Of a stretch of DNA of 64,000 nucleotides, positions 39,271 through 61,138 are shown piece after piece. The stretch is from Sipunculus nudus (lineage: Eukaryota > Annelida > Sipuncula > Golfingiida > Sipunculidae), in contig CM049319.1 of the NCBI GenBank assembly GCA_026874595.1, forward strand, positions 16,643,601 through 16,707,600. The letters run 5' to 3'. The position numbers and the translations under genes are program-made. Under the pieces are notes generated by a model that was not told the DNA's origin, made no database searches, and saw nothing but the letters and a program-made list of their open reading frames with translations. Position 1 is the first letter of the stretch. Each line of letters opens with the position of its first letter.

Positions 39271-39777
39271 CACAGGCGCTTGAATTGCTATTAGTATAGA
39301 TTTCGGTTGAATTGGTTCTTTTTCTGGTTCGTTTTCTTATAACTATTACTTATCTGGCATTTTCCCTGCGTTTTTCGCACTATATGGTCCATCTCTTTAT
39401 TATTTACTTAATATTTGAGATAGGCTGGCGAGAACCCCCGTTGTCAGACCCGACAGCCATCGCACATCGGTTTCAGACTAAATTTAGAGTACATGCGTGA
39501 TTGGCTGAACCATTGTTACGTTAGCGGTGTCAATATCTGATGACTCCAGTAGTAGACATATCAACCAATCAGAAAGTGCGTCCTCGGTTGCTATGCCATG
39601 GCTGTCGGGTCTGACAAAGGCGCTTTTTGCCAGCCTTTCTCAAATATTAAGTAAATAATTAAGAGATGTACCATATAGTGAGGAAAACGCCAGGAAAATG
39701 TCAGATAAATTATAGTTATAAGGAAATGACAAAGAAAAGGAACGAATTTAACACTAATAGCAATTCAAGCGCCTGTG
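39271..39777. mobile_element. Non-autonomous DNA transposon with ~190-bp inverted repeats and 7-bp target duplication
   Basis: The left arm (39271 to about 39463) and right arm (about 39598-39777) are inverted copies along their length. They start CACAGGCGCTTGAATTGC and include TTATAACTAT, TATCTG-CATTTTCC, CACTATATGGT, TTATTTACTTAATATTTGAGA, AGGCTGGC and GTCAGACCCGACAGCCAT. GTGTATG is duplicated exactly at 39264-39270 and 39778-39784. The central ~135 bases hold ATTGGCTGA and ACCAATCAG in opposite orientation. There is no transposase. The 7-bp duplication does not settle the superfamily. Confidence 0.85.
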
Positions 39778-50701: not shown

Positions 50702-50716
50702 AAAACAGTTGCTTTT
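50702..50716 (+). repeat. Left target-site duplication of the LINE
   Basis: AAAACAGTTGCTTTT, identical to 56234-56248 beyond the poly(A). The A residues at its left edge cannot be told apart from tail bases on the right copy, so at least 11 of the 15 positions are unambiguous. Confidence 0.9.
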
Positions 50717-51039
50717 TTGTGGTGCTCGTGTGCTCGTTGTGAGTGGACGTGTGCTCTTTCTATGGCAAATTATACCTGTATTACCAGCTGAATATTGATG
50801 AAAATTTGCTGAGAGACCCATGAGGGACAGTTTCGAATGATGTGGAAATATAAGGTAAATTTGGCAAAGAATTCTTTGTAAAACTGACAGTAATATTATT
50901 GAATTGTATTATTGGATCCTGTGATTGTCTGCTCAGTGAACCATTCAGTGAAAGCCCTGCGGTTAGGGCACGGATTTGTGTGGCGCGTGTTCAGGTACCC
51001 TGTTCACCGAAGCGCTGAATTCACGATAGCATTGTCAGA
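50717..51039 (+). promoter_or_regulatory. LINE 5' UTR, presumed internal promoter
   Basis: 323 bases between the duplication and the ORF1 start. It begins TTGTGGTGCTCGTGTGCTCG. Full-length LINEs carry their promoter here; I see no specific factor site worth naming. Confidence 0.5.
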
Positions 51040-52357
51040 ATGGAACACGACTCTGTGTTGCCCGTGTTCTTTAAAAATTACACTGTGCTTTCCAATACAA
51101 ACATTAAAAACTCTATGAGACCTTATGAAGTTTGTTCTGCTGCAGCTCAGGTTGTTGGCTCGGACAATATTGATAGTGCACAAAAAATAAAAAATCTGTG
51201 GAGAATATATGTGAAATCAATTGATGCAAGAATAAAACTTTTGACAGAGGGAGTGTCTCTACGGAATAAGTTTGTACAACTTTCCGACACAAACCCTTAT
51301 AGTGCAAGAAATTCAGACAATTTCCCAGCACCCATCAAAGTCACAATTGCAGATGTCCCCCTCTCATTTGACAACCAATCTATTGTTGAACACTTACAGT
51401 CAGAATATAAGTTTGAACTACGTTCTGAAATAAAATATCAATATAAAAGGACAAAAGAAGGACCCCTGAAACATTACAAAAATGGAAACAGATTTGTGAA
51501 ATCGCCATTGGCAAACCCACTACCACGAAATGGACAAATTGGACCATTTCAGTGCAGATTTTTTCAAATTGATTAGTTCAAGGACCTGACCTGTATAGTA
51601 TGTCATAAAGAAAGGTCACAAACCAGGTAGCAAGTACTGTGAGCATTACATACCTGATCAATCAATGGAAATTGTGTCTGGCCATGATGATATTCTCTCC
51701 AACTCCTTCCCTTGTTCTTTGGAAATGTACGGGAAAACTTTTAAAAGCGCTGAACATGCGTTTCAGTATAGATGCGCATATGAATTGGACCAAGATGCGT
51801 TGGCCAATGAAATTGAAAACGCAAAACATGCAGGAGTTGCCAAGAGAATTGGCCAGATCTTGAACTCTGATGAATCTGTGGACAGACATGAAATTGAAAT
51901 TTTGGAAAATATCCTGTTAGAGAAAGCAGAACAGATCCCTGAATTCAAAAAAGCTCTCATGAAATCAGGTATACAGCACCGATCGCCCACACAGTTCAAG
52001 ATAAGCAGTGGGGAACAGGGCTGTCCAAATTTCTCTCCAGAGTCAACAAGGTGGATGCATGACCTGGTAAGAACTTATACGGTGCCACACTTGAGAAAAT
52101 AAGATCCTTTTATAGTGCGGAAAATCATGACAGAGAAAAAAGCAACTAGCAATGTAGCCTCAGTACAAGACCAAGAGTCCAACCAGGTTTTTCAAGGCAT
52201 GGGAACACCGAAACGAAAACTATCTGAACAGTCACCAAATCAGCAAAAACATACAAGTTTAAGAGTTTCACTGAAATCTCGCAGATATGACTTTAGCCCA
52301 CAATCTGAACAAAGAGGGGTCGTCGAAGATCGTGTTTTTGAAGAAAGTGATGGTTAG
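51040..52357 (+). pseudogene. LINE ORF1: RRM, CCHC zinc knuckle, NADAR domain, basic tail (broken)
   Basis: The first frame (51040-51576, 178 codons) has a helical N-terminal region, then an RRM-like segment at about residues 97-155 (APIKVTIADVPLSFDN ... YKNGNRFV), then IGPFQCRFF, the usual lead-in to a zinc knuckle. After TAG 51574-51576 the knuckle CIVCHKE continues. One extra base in the A-run at 51611-51613 moves the frame, and the rest of the knuckle (GHKPGSKYC) is read directly into the NADAR domain. A second shift near 51967, TGA at 52060-52062 and a third shift in A6 at 52136-52141 follow. The tail (to TAG 52355-52357) is Ser/Lys-rich with TPKRKLSEQSP, a possible nuclear signal. LINE ORF1 proteins bind the element RNA. 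The added enzyme domain is atypical for the class. RRM-CCHC assignment is by motif order. Confidence 0.85.
51614..52128 (+). pseudogene. NADAR (YbiA/COG3236-like N-glycosidase) domain within LINE ORF1
   Basis: NADAR signatures appear in order. LSNSFPCSLEMYGKTFKSAEHAFQ (51689-51760) has the SN-F, the G-K-T/W-F and the conserved E-H-x-F-Q, whose Glu is the likely catalytic residue. AKHAGVAKRIGQ (about 51820-51855) is next. Then comes the helix IEILENILLEKAEQIPEFKKALMKSG (51893-51970). After a frame change at about 51967 the family's C-terminal motif IAHTVQDKQWGTGLS is read, and later PGKNLYGATLEKIR, with a TGA exactly where the Trp of the usual WPGKN motif belongs. NADAR proteins cleave N-glycosidic bonds in riboflavin intermediates, and some release ADP-ribose from modified guanine in DNA. 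Finding all motifs in order, joined to the zinc knuckle, leaves little doubt about identity. The activity in a retrotransposon is unknown. Confidence 0.88.
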
Positions 52358-52364
52358 CATATAA

Positions 52365-53222
52365 AAATGTTCATATTACTTTTTACAAGAAACCTATTGC
52401 ACTATAATATCATCGAATATAATTAATAGTTCATGGAAAGGTCAAATATTTCATAGTCATGCATCCTCACCACATAGCAGAGGTGTTGCAATACTATTAT
52501 CAGATAAAATAAATATAAAAATTTTAAATATTCATTGCTGTAAAAATGGTAGAAAAATACTGTTGAATACAGAATACAAAGGTAAAAAATTATGCTTAGT
52601 ATGTGTTTATGCACCGAACAAAGAAGGGGAACGGAAACTTTTCTTTGAGGACTTAGAGAAATGGTTAATGGAAAATAGTGATTCTTTAAGGTGTATCATT
52701 ATGGGAGGTGATTTTAATTGCTGTCTGCAAGATGATGATAGAAGCACGATGTCACATATGGCAGACCAAAGTAGAATACTATTGAAAAATATGTTAAATA
52801 CTTTAAAGCTTACTGATATATGGAGTTGTTATGGCAGATTAAATAACCGATTTACATGGTCAGAAAGGAATGTAAGCAGTAGACTTGACTATTTCTTTAT
52901 CTCTAAATCTGAATTCTGGAACCGCTTAAATTATGACTGTAAATACGTACTGTCAGAGCAAAAAGAACATCGGCTGTCAGATCACAAAGCTATAAAGTTA
53001 TGTCTGGATTTTAAAGTAAGCATTAGAGGGTCGGGATATTGGAAACTAAACGTCAGCCTATTAAATGATCCAATTTATATTGGGCTGATGAAAGACTGTA
53101 TTGCCTCTAGTTACGCCCGTTATAAACACAATTCTGCGAGGCTAGCTTGGGAAATGATAAAAATTAACATAAAAGAAGCAAGTATTAACTACTCTAAATC
53201 GAAAAGAAAAGAAAAAAAATAG
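52365..53222 (+). pseudogene. APE-type endonuclease domain of ORF2, N-terminus missing
   Basis: One open frame from 52365. FLQETYC (52380-52400) has the catalytic Glu. HSRGVAILL follows, then VCVYAPN, IIMGGDFNC (52698-52724) with the catalytic Asp/Asn, SSRLDYFFIS (52878-52907), and LSDHKAIKL (52974-53000) with the Asp-His pair. These are the apurinic/apyrimidinic-like nuclease motifs that nick target DNA in L1-type LINEs. The domain is otherwise continuous; the missing N-terminal strand would disable it. The frame closes at TAG 53220-53222 because of an A-run frame change. Confidence 0.9.
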
Positions 53223-53427
53223 TAGATTAGCTATGATAGACAAAAGGATTAAACAAATTTCACAGCTTATTAGTTTAAATTCAATAGCTAAGGATATAGA
53301 AAGATTAAAAGAAGAAAAGCATTTACTTGAAATAGAAAAAAAAAATGAAATATTTTATAATATAACAAAAGGTGCTCAAATACGTAGTAGAGCTAATAGG
53401 ATTGAACTTTTTCAAGCTGGAGAATAA
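53223..53427 (+). pseudogene. ORF2 linker between endonuclease and reverse transcriptase
   Basis: This frame reads a Lys/Glu/Ile-rich helical segment (MIDKRIKQISQLISLN..., 53233 on) ending KGAQIRSRANRIE. That is the usual lead-in to the LINE fingers region (RSRxxWIEEGE). The frame shifts there into the RT frame at FFKLENKNQSDN, with about five to eight residues absent at the join. Confidence 0.8.
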
Positions 53428-55534
53428 AAACCAGTCAGATAACACTATTTATAAAATCAGAGAAAACAATAATATAATAGAAGATGATGAAGGAATACTA
53501 AATCATATAAATAATTATTACAAAAACTTATATACATCACACAATCCATGTGTGAAAGGGATACAGAAATACTTAAATAATATAAAATCTTTAAATGTTT
53601 TAAGTGATGAAGATAAAGATATATGTGATGCAGAAATGACAATGGATGAAATTAAAATTGCTGTAACTCAAATGAAGAAAAACAAGTCACCAGGATTAGA
53701 TGGCATCCCTATTGAATTCTACGTGACTTTTTGGGATGACCTAAAAGAGTTTTTATATAATGCTTTTATAGAATCGTATCGTCACAATAAATTATGTACT
53801 ACAATGCGTACAGCTGTAATAGCAATATTATTTAAGAAAGGAGACAAATATAATTTAAATAATTATAGACCTATAAGCCTCTGTAACACTGATTATAAAA
53901 TATTAGCACAAGTATTAGCAAATAGATTGCAAAATATTTTACCAAAAATAATTGACACAGATCAGACCGGATATATTAAAGGTAGATACATCGGAAATAA
54001 TTTACGCCTAATCACGGACATATTTGAATTTGCTAAGAAATATGATAAAGAAGGGGGGTTAATTTTTCTCGATTTTACAAAGGCTTTTGATAGCTTAGAA
54101 TGGAATTTTATGTTTGAAACTTTTAAAAAATTTAATTTTGGTCAGAACTTTATCAACTGGATTAAAACTATTTACAATAACCCACTTTTTACTACAAAAA
54201 ATAACGGATGGTTATCTTTCAAAAGTGTTATGAAAAGAGGTATACGACAGGGCTGTCCAGTATCTGCATTACTTTTTATTATTTCAGTTGAAATATTGGC
54301 ACAAAAAATACGAACAAATGATAATATTAACGGCTTTATTTTTGGCAGTAAAGAAATAAAACTTAGCCAATATGCAGATGATACTACTTTGACTCTGAGA
54401 AATGATAAATCAGTTTCAACTGCCTTGAAGGAAATTTATGAATTTGGAAACCTAGCTGGTTTAAAACTAAATATGGAAAAAACTACCGCTTTAGATCTGG
54501 GAAATAATAAGAGGCATAAAGATCCAATAGGAGTAAAATGGACAAAACAGCCAGTGAAATGCTTAGGAATTCGGTTTGGATATTATGAGAAATGTATAGA
54601 AAAACTAAACTGGGAAGATAAAATTGATAAAATAGAGAACAACATAAAAATTTGGAAGTTGAGGAATCTAAGTTTAATGGGAACAATATTAATTGTTAAG
54701 ACAATACTTTTATCCAAAATAGCATTACAAGCTTCGGTACTACCAATTCCGGACGGATTCAAAAAAAGAATAAACAAAGTAATTAATAACTATATTTGGA
54801 ATAAAACAGAAAAAATTAAAAGGTCAGTTTTAATAAGAGATATAGAGGAAGGCGGTCTTAAAATGATCGATATCAATAGTTGGTTACTTTCATTAAAAGC
54901 CGCATGGGTACCAAGAATACTTTATGAAGAAAATAAATGGAAACATATCTTTAAATATTATTTACACAACTGTGGGCTCCATAGAGACTGGGTATTTAAC
55001 ACAAACTGTGTATCAATAAAGCAGTTTTGCATATTGAAACATATACCCAAATTTTATAGAGAAGTGATATTAGCTCTTAATAAATGTAAGGTTAAAAGAG
55101 AGATTACTTCACCAGAAGATATTTTAAAACAACCATTATGGGGTAACACTGAATTTATGATCAATAATAAATGCTTATATTTAAAAGCCTGGGTTGAAGA
55201 AAATATAATTTATATTCGAGATGTTCTGAACAATGACGGCACTTTTATATCAGTCAGCAACCTTTTAAAGAAATTAAAAATAAAACACAATTGGATATCG
55301 GAATATATACAGGTTAAAAATGCCGTTAAAAAGACTCTTTCTCTATTTCCAAAAGAACAATTCATAAAGAAATCGGTTTATCTAGAACACACATACACGC
55401 TTGGTAAACATAAAATTAATATATATAAGAAAAAATCAAAATTCTTTTACAATGAATTAGTAAGAAGAATTATGTTTTCTCCCAAACATCAAATTATTTT
55501 GCAGGAAAAATTTAAAAAAGAATTAATAAGTTAG
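53372..55534 (+). pseudogene. Reverse transcriptase domain of LINE ORF2
   Basis: 720 codons open. MKKNKSPGLDGIPIEFY is at about residues 101-117 and NNYRPISLCN at 163-172. LIFLDFTKAFDSLEWN is at 230-245, with catalytic Asp 234. MKRGIRQGCPVSALLF is at 288-302, and LSQYADDTTL at 331-340, with the catalytic YADD at 334-337. Thumb motifs such as KCLGIRFG follow. All metal-binding aspartates are present. The start drawn at 53372 is arbitrary: in the parent this was internal to ORF2. The end TAG 55532-55534 is an in-frame nonsense change, since homologous sequence continues directly after it. Confidence 0.95.
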
Positions 55535-56053
55535 ACAAAAGTCTATCAGTGTAAAATTAAAAGCATGCCAACGAAAAAACTATCAGAATTTAATTTCAAA
55601 TTATTACATGGCATTATTCCAACAGGTACCAAAGTGTCCAAATGGAACTCAAATATTTCCCATCTTTGTAAATTTTGTAATGTAAATGAAAATGCAGAAC
55701 ATATGCTGTATGAATGTAAATTATTGAGGGGGATATGGGAAAATATTATGAAAATACTTCATATCCAGATAAACTGGGAAACGCTCGTAATTGGTCATAA
55801 ATACGCACAGGATGGTAATTTTGTAAAAATGAACAATTTCATAATACCAGTAACTACGTGTGCCATTTTTAAGTACAATATGCATTGTAAATATAATGAA
55901 ATTAGCCTATCAGAGAGTAAAATACGACAATATGTATCGCAAGATATTATGAAACATGTATATATGCAGAAATATTTAAAATATCCTTACTTGAATCAAA
56001 TTTTCATTGATAGATTTATAAAAATTAAAGTTAGTATTTTATCTGTATGTTAA
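55535..56053 (+). pseudogene. C-terminal zinc-finger segment of LINE ORF2
   Basis: In the same frame as the RT and continuing it after TAG 55532-55534. KLSEFNFKLLHGIIPT, then LCKFCNVNENAEHMLYEC (55667-55720) gives C-x2-C-x8-H-x4-C, the RT-associated zinc-binding segment that follows many LINE RT domains and may bind RNA or target DNA. It ends at TAA 56051-56053. Confidence 0.85.
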
Positions 56054-56197
56054 TATTGTATGTTTATTTATTTTTCATTTTATTCTTAAATGTTATTGTG
56101 CTGACAGATAAAAAGTAATAAGTATTTTGAATGTATTCATTCCATCCCCTCTATCTGTCGGAGTGGATATGGCTTTGTCAAAGGCAGAGTATAATGC
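56054..56197 (+). other. LINE 3' UTR
   Basis: About 145 bases between the ORF2 stop and the poly(A) signal, AT-rich with CCATCCCCTCTATCTGTCGG near 56142. No structure assigned. Confidence 0.7.
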
Positions 56198-56203
56198 AAT
56201 AAA
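56198..56203 (+). terminator. LINE polyadenylation signal AATAAA
   Basis: AATAAA lies 7 bases before a run of 27 A (56211-56237). The last four A residues may belong to the target duplication. Confidence 0.9.
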
Positions 56204-56233
56204 GGTCATTAAAAAAAAAAAAAAAAAAAAAAA

Positions 56234-56248
56234 AAAACAGTTGCTTTT
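56234..56248 (+). repeat. Right target-site duplication of the LINE
   Basis: AAAACAGTTGCTTTT immediately after the poly(A), identical to 50702-50716. Confidence 0.9.
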
Positions 56249-57620: not shown

Positions 57621-59125
57621 AATATGTTGAAAATTACACACCTTAGGCCCGCAGGTGCCAGGCCTGCATTGTTGAAACCGTGCTGGATATAAAATGAAAG
57701 GAAGCGTGCTACACAGCACAAAATCACAAAATGGTCTTCTAGATATATACACCATTAGCCAAATACGTATATAGCCAGTGAGGCAATGTGTATGGTCACT
57801 ATAAGAGCATATATAAAATGATTTGTATATTGTTTGAGGTGCAATGATACATATTCTAAATATCAATGTAATATAATTACAAATCATTTTCTCAGTCGTA
57901 ACTTGTTTGAATTGTTTGTTGAACCTTTTTTAATCTGGCATTATGAACTTGATTTATATATTTGCTTATGTATACGTTATAACTTTGAAAGTTCGGAACC
58001 CATCAGAAGTCCCTCAGAGTGAAAATATTTATACCCCCTTATGTTCAGGGGTATCTGCCTTGATCCCCCATAGGCCCCACCTCCGGGGCGCATAATTTAT
58101 GTTTTCAATATGGCGTCTGTGATATGGCGTCTGTTCTCGGCTCTGCCGTATTTCTCCTGTGGGTTATTTGTCAGTGGTACCCGACTTTATTTCCTTGTGC
58201 ATATTTGCTGTGGAGATTAGTCTCTCCTAGCTTAGAGTCATCTAGACGTCATAAATCACTATAAATCTTTATAGATTTTACTTATAAATCATCTAAGCAT
58301 TATTCTCCCTGACACATGGCCTCTCTCTTTACTTTTACGGTATTACCCGGACAATATACGGTGTGATGTGATAGAACTATATTAGACGAGTATGCGCACT
58401 GCACGTAATGATAGTCTGCAGCGTCCGGGTCCAATGGAGCTCAAAAATCTTGAAATAAAGCCCAATGCAAGCCAGAGGCTGCATTAAAGATTTTGCCATT
58501 AAAGACAAGGTAGAATTGCTTATTTATATCATTTCGATTATTAGAAAATATTATCTTTCTTGTATTTTTTTTCCGGTCCGACCACGCAGTACCTGTCTTC
58601 GCCGACAGGTGGGCTAGTGAGATGGGAAGTGAAAGGGCTATAACGTTGCGCATGCGCAATTGTTTTTGCATGTTTTTCATCATGTGTTGCAAATTATCTG
58701 TCTGTAAACAGGGCCAAACGTGCAACTTGCCTCATTCGAGGATTATTATACGGCATTTAATGTTTTTCCATTAAGCCCTTGATGTATATAACAGCAACAT
58801 ATGAAATAGGTTATATCAGCCACCGATGTGTTCGTGTTTTATATCATTACTTGTGGATAATAGATATTTGCTTTGTCTGATGCTTTTTGCACCGAAGGCT
58901 TAGAGGCTTTAAACACAGCTATAACCAGGTATAGTAAAAATGCTGTTATTTGTTTCAAGGAGTGGTAGTTAGCCCAAACTGGAATAAAATCCTTCACACA
59001 GCATCTCATGAACACAGATGATCTAACAAAACAAAGACTCCTAATCACAGACAGACATGGGTGGAAATCGAAAATTCCATTTTCATCAAGTTTTTTACGC
59101 GCACAACAACACCGTCACTACCACC
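57621..59125. other. Unassigned intergenic DNA
   Basis: No gene recognised. GGCGTCTGTGATATGGCGTCTGT at about 58112 is a small doublet. Confidence 0.35.
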
Positions 59126-59138
59126 AATAATAAAAGTA

Positions 59139-59174
<36 letters not shown>

Positions 59175-59236
59175 GTAATAATAATAATAATAATAATAAT
59201 ATTAAGAGTAATTATAATAATAATAGTAATGATTAT

Positions 59237-59287
<51 letters not shown>

Positions 59288-59323
59288 AAGAGTAATAATA
59301 ATAGTAATAATCATAATAAGTGA

Positions 59324-59375
<52 letters not shown>

Positions 59376-59423
59376 GTAATAATATTAAAAGGAGTAATAA
59401 TAATGATAAAAATAATAATAATA
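59126..59423 (+). repeat. (TAA)n microsatellite, copy A
   Basis: About 300 bases of imperfect TAA/AAT with AAAAGT and ATTAAGAGT interruptions. Poly-Ile and poly-Asn open frames are artefacts. Partner is 60146-60410. Confidence 0.95.
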
Positions 59424-60148
59424 TTAAGAAGAGGAAGAAGAAGAATCACCATTAAAAAATGAGTAGACATTTTCGACCATCTTATTAGAATATTTATTTA
59501 CGGCCCGAATATGTGCAGCAACACCGCATACTTTCGCTACCTAATACGGAACGACACACTTGACGTAAAAAGGACTATGATAAATTATATTAGCGGGTAT
59601 ACATAGAGCAGAATATAACGGGACGTTTAGACATGTACTCTTGTTGGCTTAAACATATCACAGTAGCAGAGAACCGGAGGTTATCGGTTTGATTACCAAA
59701 GGAAATGGAAGATCAGGTCTTATAAAGTCAAATTAAGAGGAAATCTTGGTGAAAGTCTTGGTCGACGTATCTCGATTTCTCTGTGTATCATGTGATACGA
59801 ATTAACAGATAGTGACAAGTTTCATTGATTCAGAAACCCTAAAGTAAAAGTTGGGTTATAATTATGGTTATATAATATAATTGGTTTTGTGATATACCAT
59901 AGCGTATAAGGTTACGACTGAATGTATCAACGGTTGGCACCTCAGGTGATTGATACATCGGCAGGTGGTCGGCATCACAGCATGTGGTCAATACCTAGGC
60001 AGGTCTTCGGCACATAAGCAGGTGGACCATACCTCGGCAGGTGGACTACATCTCAGCAGGGGGTCTGCACCTCAACAGGTGGAAAATAATTCGGCAGGGG
60101 GACGGCGGGAATGGATTGGCTTCGTGTCAAGAAGGGCTAAGTGGCTTT
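59424..60148 (+). repeat. Tandem duplication, copy A
   Basis: 725 bases nearly identical to 60411-61138. By eye about ten differences, such as GCAACACCGCA versus GCAACACAGCA and one extra T in ACCCTTAAAG. Together with the preceding (TAA)n the unit is about 1 kb, present twice head to tail. Contains the minisatellite at 59959-60109. Confidence 0.95.
59959..60109 (+). repeat. 19-bp minisatellite, eight units (copy A)
   Basis: Consecutive 19-mers of the form CGGCAGGTGGNCNNCANCT run from 59959, with the last unit 18 bases. The open frame across it (VVGITACGQ..., HTSAGGLHLS...) is only the repeat in translation. Confidence 0.85.
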
Positions 60149-60215
60149 AATAATAATAATAAAAGTAATAATAATAATAATAATAATAATAATATTAAGA
60201 GTAATTATAATAATA

Positions 60216-60254
<39 letters not shown>

Positions 60255-60319
60255 GTAATTATAATAATAATAATAATAATAATGATAAGAGTTATAATCA
60301 TAATAAGTGAAATAATTAA

Positions 60320-60371
<52 letters not shown>

Positions 60372-60410
60372 TTAAAAGGAGTAATAATAATGATAAAAAA
60401 AATAATAATA
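60146..60410 (+). repeat. (TAA)n microsatellite, copy B
   Basis: Same interruptions as copy A, slightly shorter. It separates the two unique parts of the duplication. Confidence 0.95.
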
Positions 60411-61138
60411 TTAAGAAGAGGAAGAAGAAGAAGAATCACCATTAAAAAATGAGTAGACATTTTCGACCATCTTATTAGAATATTTATTTACGGCCCGAAT
60501 ATGTGCAGCAACACAGCATACTTTCGCTACCTAATACGGAACGACACACTTGACGTAAAAAGGACTAAGTTAAATTATATTAGCGGGTATACATAGAGCA
60601 GAATATAACGGGACGTTTAGACATGTACTCTTGTTGGCTTAAACATATCACAGTAGCAGAGAGCCGGAGGTTATCGGTTTGATTACCTAAGGAAATGGAA
60701 GATCAGGTCTTATAAAGTCAAATTAAGAGGAAATCTTGGTGAAAGTCTTGGTCGACGTATCTCGATTTCTCTGTGTATCATGTGATACGAATTAACAGAT
60801 AGTGACAAGTTTCATTGATTCAGAAACCCTTAAAGTAAAAGTTGGGTTATAATTATGGTTATATAATATAATTGGTTTTGTGATATACCATAGCGTATAA
60901 GGTTACGACTGAATGTATCAACGGTTGGCACCTCAGGTAATTGATACATCGGCAGGTGGTCGGCACCACAGCATGTGGTCAATACCTAGGCAGGTCTTCG
61001 GCACATAACCAGGTGGACCATACCTCGGCAGGTGGACTACAGCTCAGCAGGGGGTCTGCACCTCAACAGGTGGAAAATAATTCGGCAGGGGGACGGCGGG
61101 AATGGATTGGCTTCGTGTCAAGTAGGGCTAAGTGGCTT
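60411..61138 (+). repeat. Tandem duplication, copy B
   Basis: Second copy of 59424-60148. The homology ends after GGGCTAAGTGGCTTT, where copy A instead runs into the next (TAA)n. That places the junction in the microsatellite. Confidence 0.95.
60950..61100 (+). repeat. 19-bp minisatellite, eight units (copy B)
   Basis: Same eight units as 59959-60109 with a few substitutions, so the array formed before the 1-kb duplication. Confidence 0.85.

Follow-up and report, generated by a model that had tools for sequence, protein, structure and literature searches.

The ORF1 proteins of LINEs are generally seen as chaperones that bind RNA. A preliminary description of a LINE copy in a 64,000-nucleotide stretch of Sipunculus nudus DNA (the window) placed a NADAR domain in ORF1. 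In this study, we asked whether this domain, a relative of enzymes that remove ADP-ribose from DNA bases, is a genuine and inherited part of the element and what it may do there.

Structure of the LINE copy in the window

The LINE copy lies on the forward strand and extends from its 5' end to the poly-A at 50717..56233. These limits are based on the ends of the target-site duplication and on the 5' starts of other copies. The left duplication, AAAACAGTTGCTTTT (50702..50716, 15 bp), matches the right one (56234..56248) exactly, and the poly-A tail, read by eye at 56211..56237 (+), overlaps the latter. The 5' boundary is fixed by a blastn comparison with five other copies, three of which start matching at 50719 (L035), 50721 (L042) and 50724 (L030). 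A target-site duplication of 17 bp was found at relative L025, and the search at relatives L023 and L024 found none.

ORF2 was examined with Pfam and PDB. The APE-type endonuclease (52365..53222, +), whose N-terminus is deleted here and retained in copies L030 and L031, matched Exo_endo_phos (PF03372, E 2.1e-10 on 52365-53219) and L1 ORF2p (E 2.2e-14). The reverse transcriptase (53366..55534, +) matched RVT_1 (E 1.9e-40 on 53366-55531), and among PDB chains it was nearest to human L1 ORF2p (E 1.5e-61, versus 6.5e-23 at best for R2). After an in-frame stop, the ORF2 C-terminus (55535..56053, +) contains zf-RVT (PF13966, E 1.9e-8 on 55535-56050). With an APE endonuclease and a reverse transcriptase in ORF2, a 15-bp duplication and a poly-A tail, the unit is a LINE.

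The N-terminal half of ORF1 (51040..51573, +), aligned to relative P0001, contains two RRM-like domains. The AlphaFold2 model of P0001 has RRM folds at residues 9-92 and 100-183, so the single RRM described earlier has to be replaced by two. No Pfam match below E 0.026 was obtained for this half of the window ORF1. The zinc knuckle (51592..51640, +) is split by a frame change into a frame-1 part (CIVCHK) and a frame-2 part (GHKPGSKYC); it is uninterrupted in copies L031 and L033, and its Cys and His columns were invariant in 50 proteins. The NADAR domain follows at about 51665..52113 (+) and then a tail at 52114..52357 (+), where conservation is weak; in three of the four family pairs compared, pN was close to pS. 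The window ORF1 is not one open frame owing to frameshifts and stops. Frame 1 encodes the RRMs; the knuckle's second half and the bulk of NADAR lie in frame 2, the NADAR C-terminus returns to frame 1 and the tail is again in frame 2. In addition, about 155 bases of copy L030 are absent from the window copy. The missing stretch covers the ORF1 end and about 34 residues (counted by eye) of the endonuclease N-terminus.

In the window, NADAR was matched by PF08719 at E 1.9e-8 on 51599-52099, with 35.2 bits against a cut-off of 35.1, and by PDB 8bau at E 3.4e-4; the preliminary description had placed the domain at 51614-52128. A chance match was considered and excluded because NADAR of the intact copy L031 scored E 2.1e-17 with PF08719, and the NADAR fold was confirmed on P0001 with an AlphaFold2 model and Foldseek. 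The reported order of RRM, knuckle, NADAR, endonuclease and reverse transcriptase on the forward strand of one duplication-bounded unit is real. The window unit is a dead, decayed copy of an L1-superfamily LINE, and its ORF1 has the plan 2xRRM-CCHC-NADAR-tail. Like human LINE-1, it has an EN-RT ORF2, a poly-A tail and a target-site duplication; unlike human LINE-1, it has an ORF1 of the type with two RRMs and a knuckle, and to our knowledge human ORF1p has no NADAR domain. The element is probably Tx1-like, a name taken from the oyster elements in a passage of PMC12477816.

NADAR as an inherited part of ORF1

We examined 21 further genomic loci, which were selected by their NADAR match. Twelve of them were copies of the window family (84-95% amino acid identity) with NADAR at the same place, and two of these 12, L031 and L033, each had one open RRM-RRM-CCHC-NADAR ORF1 of 442 aa. 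No family member lacking NADAR was seen among these NADAR-selected loci. The single frame claimed for knuckle and NADAR exists in the intact copies; in the window copy, NADAR changes from frame 2 to frame 1. Two protein searches gave 58 relatives, and Pfam NADAR was present in 56, while P0002 and P0064 were frame-broken inside NADAR. LINEs can carry along flanking DNA, and single-domain NADAR ORFs, probably host genes, occur in this genome, both of which would fit a host gene fragment captured by one copy only. However, NADAR was at the same place in 12 of the 21 loci and intact in two, and proteins from other genomes had the same domain order, so we rejected such a one-off insertion as extremely improbable. 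These results indicate that NADAR is part of the element and not a later insertion, as initially proposed.

Whether NADAR in a LINE ORF1 had been reported before was left open in the preliminary description. It is already in print for oyster, since one passage of a 2025 Ectocarpus paper (PMC12477816) describes NADAR (YbiA family) within ORF1 of Crassostrea gigas Tx1 LINEs (Repbase). The window LINE shares this feature, but it is another family in another host. The passages on the Crassostrea gigas elements hold no domain order, state of the catalytic residues, copy or selection data, which are available here for the window family. The same paper places a YbiA-family NADAR in another kind of retroelement, within Pol of Ectocarpus Gypsy elements.

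We also found a second LINE class (class 2) with a human-L1-type ORF1p plus NADAR. Its ORF1p has the coiled coil-RRM-CTD fold common to human LINE-1 (match to 2yko, E 3.8e-8). Furthermore, the NADAR of TRIM-knuckle-NADAR genes fell inside the LINE clade. Our literature search found no report of either such a LINE class or such genes. In the NADAR tree, with only two rows of single-domain host NADARs, the TRIM and P0067/P0068 rows were placed inside C1. In p-AU tests bearing on whether NADAR was gained once for both LINE classes, weakened by the naming of groups after a first tree was seen, a clade of LINE classes C1 and C2 alone was rejected (p-AU 0.00036), as was C1 without TRIM/P0067/P0068 (p-AU 0.018); C1+C2 with the TRIM and P0067/P0068 rows added was not rejected (p-AU 0.179).

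Active-site residues and selection

Residues were numbered according to Phytophthora nicotianae NADAR, with Glu43, Lys50 and Glu/Asp125 as the key set. The window family resembles P. nicotianae NADAR (8bau) and E. coli YbiA (2b3w) in the fold and in part of the ADP-ribose site, but its NADAR is fused to RNA-binding domains and differs at two key positions. Lys50 was replaced by Cys in 13/13 copies, and Glu125 by His in 8/13 and by Leu in 5/13, including both intact copies. Glu43 was kept in 12 of 13, L049 being gapped there. Accordingly, the residue set of a catalytically competent NADAR was not found in these 13 copies. As two of the three residues important in a characterised NADAR are changed, the "NADAR enzyme domain" proposed earlier is, in the window family, only a putative enzyme.

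The essential Lys and the catalytic Glu were both kept in 33 of 54 two-RRM-type domains. Protein P0006 has the full set. Glu occupied position 125 in 38/54 by code and 40/54 by eye, since the heuristic calls at this position misread P0038 and P0029, both Glu by eye. The wider set of E + K/R + E/D/H + W was kept in 39/54 by code and 40/54 by eye (P0038 misread). A plausible catalytic set was present in only 5/12 class-2 domains, and the TRIM-type domain tested had Gln at position 125.

Within the family, dN/dS was mildly below 1 (NADAR 0.63, overall 0.70), values blurred by the poorly aligned copies L032 and L036. Between the two intact copies it was 2.01, on very few differences. In the window family and a sister subfamily, the catalytic residues are changed, yet the domain fold persists, as does the selection contrast between families. 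This is what would be expected if NADAR were a non-catalytic module that binds ADP-ribose, NAD, modified RNA or protein, aiding particle assembly or targeting ADP-ribosylated chromatin, e.g. DNA breaks. Leu in place of Trp133 in L046 and L052 (by eye; both outside the class-2 count of 12) points in the same direction. The wider catalytic set kept in most two-RRM-type domains argues against it, and we consider this possibility rather unlikely.

Proposed role of NADAR in the LINE particle

The best overall explanation, to which we give a probability of roughly 0.4, is an L1-superfamily LINE whose ORF1 carries a long-inherited NADAR, maintained by selection, that handles ADP-ribosylated guanine in the particle. 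The RRMs and knuckle would coat the element RNA, and NADAR within the LINE particle would recognise or remove ADP-ribose on guanine of RNA, nascent cDNA or target DNA, which may keep reverse transcription unblocked. We infer a counter-defence role because clams possess enzymes that ADP-ribosylate guanine in DNA; substrate and activity are likewise proposed. In the window family, NADAR may bind rather than hydrolyse, since its active site is altered. The residue changes in this family and in L046 and L052, the small share of class-2 domains with a plausible catalytic set, Gln in the TRIM-type domain and the within-family dN/dS values weigh against the explanation. Another processing of the RNA intermediate, apart from defence, has been suggested in PMC12477816, in passages on the Ectocarpus and oyster elements. 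However, guanine-ADP-ribose is the demonstrated NADAR substrate in the literature consulted, where we found no test of RNA processing, and we regard this suggestion as improbable. Other NADARs are reported to relieve DarT1 toxicity in laboratory E. coli.

If handling of ADP-ribosylated guanine is the true role, a selected ADP-ribose-handling domain in ORF1 would mean that nucleic-acid ADP-ribosylation bears on animal retrotransposition, and it would provide a natural role for animal NADARs and for the clam guanine-ADP-ribosyltransferases. More speculatively, and with a still lower likelihood than the alternatives on binding and RNA processing, LINEs of two ORF1 classes might package a de-ADP-ribosylase to counter CARP-1-like guanine-ADP-ribosyltransferases of their host, and that host might in turn have recaptured the knuckle-NADAR module of a LINE for a gene family of the TRIM type. 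Such an arms race could be tested through the TRIM-type genes that contain a LINE-like module.

The NADAR-bearing LINE and its copies in the genome

The unit at 50717-56233 on the + strand is flanked by a perfect 15-bp duplication (50702-50716 and 56234-56248), and a long A-run closes its 3' end. Pfam profiles matched, in + strand order, NADAR (E = 1.9e-8), an APE-type endonuclease (2.1e-10), RVT_1 (1.9e-40), and zf-RVT (1.9e-8). The preliminary description of NADAR, then endonuclease, then RT in one duplication-bounded unit was borne out, and the significant NADAR match on which it depended was present. Among PDB chains, human L1 ORF2p was nearest to both the RT (E = 1.5e-61; R2 at best 6.5e-23) and the endonuclease (2.2e-14). 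The ORF1 frame shifts at the knuckle, near the NADAR end, and before the tail, and also contains stops. ORF2 is split into three open pieces, and relative to the copy at locus L030 a stretch of approximately 155 bases is missing where ORF1 ends and the endonuclease begins. The window copy is a dead element. Elsewhere in the window, a long repeat region with 9-12 bp steps (59011-61124) is duplicated at ~990 bp, and an inverted repeat (39306-39752) has 159-bp arms, 85% complementary and spaced by 129 bp.

The genome assembly (1.43 Gb, 153 contigs) contains at least 141 NADAR matches, and 51 stretches were taken by choice from the match list in batches of 20, 1 + 20, and 10. Window-family copies made up 12 of the 21 loci in the middle batches, with NADAR at 84-95% amino acid identity to the joined window reading. 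A sister subfamily made up 5 (46-50%), and the remaining 4 were something else. In three of five copies compared, the 5' start lay no more than 7 bases from window position 50717. On the question raised earlier of ORF1 continuity, intact copies keep one continuous frame: 442 aa are open in L031 (NADAR E = 2.1e-17) and L033. In the sister subfamily, L046 has a single open ORF1 of 428 aa (4.0e-14). Two more families, represented by L053 (2.9e-26) and L052 (1.2e-25), also have an intact ORF1. The element behind L053 is visible in its relatives L023 (RRM-NADAR-EN-RT), L024 (NADAR-EN-RT), and L025 (RRM-NADAR-EN, with its own 17-bp duplication); no duplication was found at the ends of L023 and L024.

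The first batch of 20 loci held three of this class (class 1; L023-L025), three of a second LINE class (L012, L013:1886-2935, and L014), six NADAR-SGNH repeats, one TRIM-type gene (L027), and seven host-like or unclassified loci. The repeats (L015-L019 and L026) are ORFs joining NADAR to an SGNH/GDSL-like domain, as seen by Pfam in L017. L019 and L026 have 1.9 kb in common, their ends matching each other inverted over ~460 bp. L017 and L018 have 4.1 kb in common at 99.6%; this stretch includes a PHD ORF, which also gives an Ulp1-like match below the cut-off. The top-scoring NADAR matches in the genome (L001, L002, and L003; L002 and L003 7 kb apart) are single-domain ORFs and probably host genes.

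A second ORF1 type and TRIM-type genes

Protein searches of other genomes gave 58 different relatives, 6 via the joined ORF1 and 56 via profile A2; since this profile itself held NADAR, ORF1s lacking the domain were disfavoured among them. Pfam NADAR was present on 56 of the 58, and the other two (P0002 and P0064) are frame-broken within the domain. P0067 and P0068 differ from the two-RRM type and have, by eye, an SGNH-like region after NADAR. The two relatives bearing an organism name are both from Pinctada imbricata.

The RTs of L012, L013, and L014 were at 31-37% to class 1 and 50-73% to each other. The ORF1 upstream of NADAR in L013 is different from that of class 1, and in L012 the NADAR-EN gap is 2.8 kb. 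A search with L013 found 10 proteins, all with Pfam NADAR. The model of one relative, P0010 (pLDDT 91), has a coiled coil, RRM, and CTD followed by NADAR. It matched the human L1 ORF1p trimer (2yko, 3.8e-8), whose coiled coil-RRM-CTD fold it shares, and a NADAR structure (8bau, 3.2e-10). Thus two dissimilar kinds of LINE ORF1 carry a fused NADAR. Class 2 grouped in the tree with two single-domain host NADARs (97/89), separate from class 1.

Four TRIM-like genes each read through in one open frame (596-676 aa) and show, by eye, a knuckle-like motif ahead of NADAR. RING, B-box, and NADAR exceeded Pfam cut-offs in L027:6602-8629, L060:132-2159, and L054:396-2324, and NADAR alone did in L051:227-2014. 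The first three lie on contig C5, L027 and L060 ~21 kb apart with another NADAR match between them and L054 0.7 Mb away; dN/dS among their NADARs was 0.10-0.19. In the 9.7 kb around L027, tblastn found no match to the window RT. The four formed one clade (98/92) inside the class-1 LINE NADAR clade (97/94). This nesting and the common knuckle fit uptake of a LINE ORF1 module by a host gene, although the module may have moved in the opposite direction, from a host gene into the LINE. For groups named after the first tree was seen, a class-1 clade without the TRIM-type rows and P0067/P0068 was rejected (p-AU 0.018). One acquisition for both classes, with TRIM and P0067/P0068 included, was not rejected (p-AU 0.179).

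Selection and the active site

As synonymous change is near saturation between families, only the domain contrast of pN/pS was used. For NADAR, the values were 0.403/0.780 (L031-L046), 0.518/0.664 (L031-L053), 0.508/0.756 (L031-L052), and 0.384/0.807 (L053-L052). The RRMs gave 0.294/0.713, 0.387/0.652, and 0.421/0.761 for the first three pairs. The tail gave 0.526/0.558, 0.548/0.601, 0.643/0.650, and 0.624/0.948 (29 codons) for the four. NADAR is therefore under constraint, weaker than that on the RRMs, and the tail evolves almost neutrally in all but one of the four pairs. Across 13 window-family copies, dN/dS was 0.63 for NADAR and 0.70 overall, as expected if many copy differences postdate insertion. 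The two intact copies by themselves gave 2.01 from very few differences.

Passages of PMC11543638 report that, in the E. coli C7 NADAR, efficient guanine-ADP-ribose hydrolysis is abolished by substitutions equivalent to Lys50 or Glu125 (Asp in C7). Lys to Arg at 50 is active in vitro without rescue; at the Glu43 equivalent, activity is lost with Gln and slightly affected in vitro with Ala. Phage NADARs have His at 125. We compared 54 two-RRM-type domains (56 proteins minus 5 with a short or absent NADAR match, plus L023, L025, and the window). Glu43 and Trp133 were retained in all 54. Position 50 was Lys in 42, Met in 6, Arg in 3, Cys in 2, and Gln in 1. At position 125, 38 domains had Glu by code (40 by eye) and 8 had His. 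The strict set E + K + E + W was present in 33 of the 54, and the wider set E + K/R + E/D/H + W in 39 by code (40 by eye), in 5 of 12 class-2 domains, and in 6 of 6 NADAR-SGNH domains. The one TRIM NADAR checked has Gln at 125 and falls outside the wider set. In the window family, position 50 is Cys in 13 of 13 copies and position 125 is His in 8 and Leu in 5, including both intact copies. Because of these residues, the evidence counts against a working hydrolase as the label for the window's own NADAR.

Possible role of NADAR in LINEs

NADAR in LINE ORF1 is already in print, mentioned in passing, since passages of PMC12477816 place it in ORF1 of several C. gigas Tx1 LINE families, via a Repbase query. 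They also place it in an Ectocarpus Gypsy Pol and suggest a role in RNA-intermediate processing. Among the papers listed in a search of mainly open-access journals, none was found to describe class 2, the TRIM-type NADAR genes, the states of the active site, or the selection contrast. PMC9503650, on NAD/ADP-ribose systems in viruses, does not contain the words retrotransposon, retroelement, or reverse transcriptase; PMC10294476, on bivalve transposons, does not mention NADAR; and PMC11203168 concerns gastropod LINEs.

The step with the strongest support is that a NADAR fold under selection moves along with the RNA-binding protein of the LINE. Guanine-ADP-ribose is a substrate of NADARs (PMC11543638), and guanine N2 ADP-ribosylation activity on DNA is present in six edible clams, according to passages of PMC11209040. 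Joining this substrate with the clam activity, we infer that LINE NADAR might act against clam-type guanine ADP-ribosylation as a counter-defence. In the window family, hydrolysis may have been replaced by binding.
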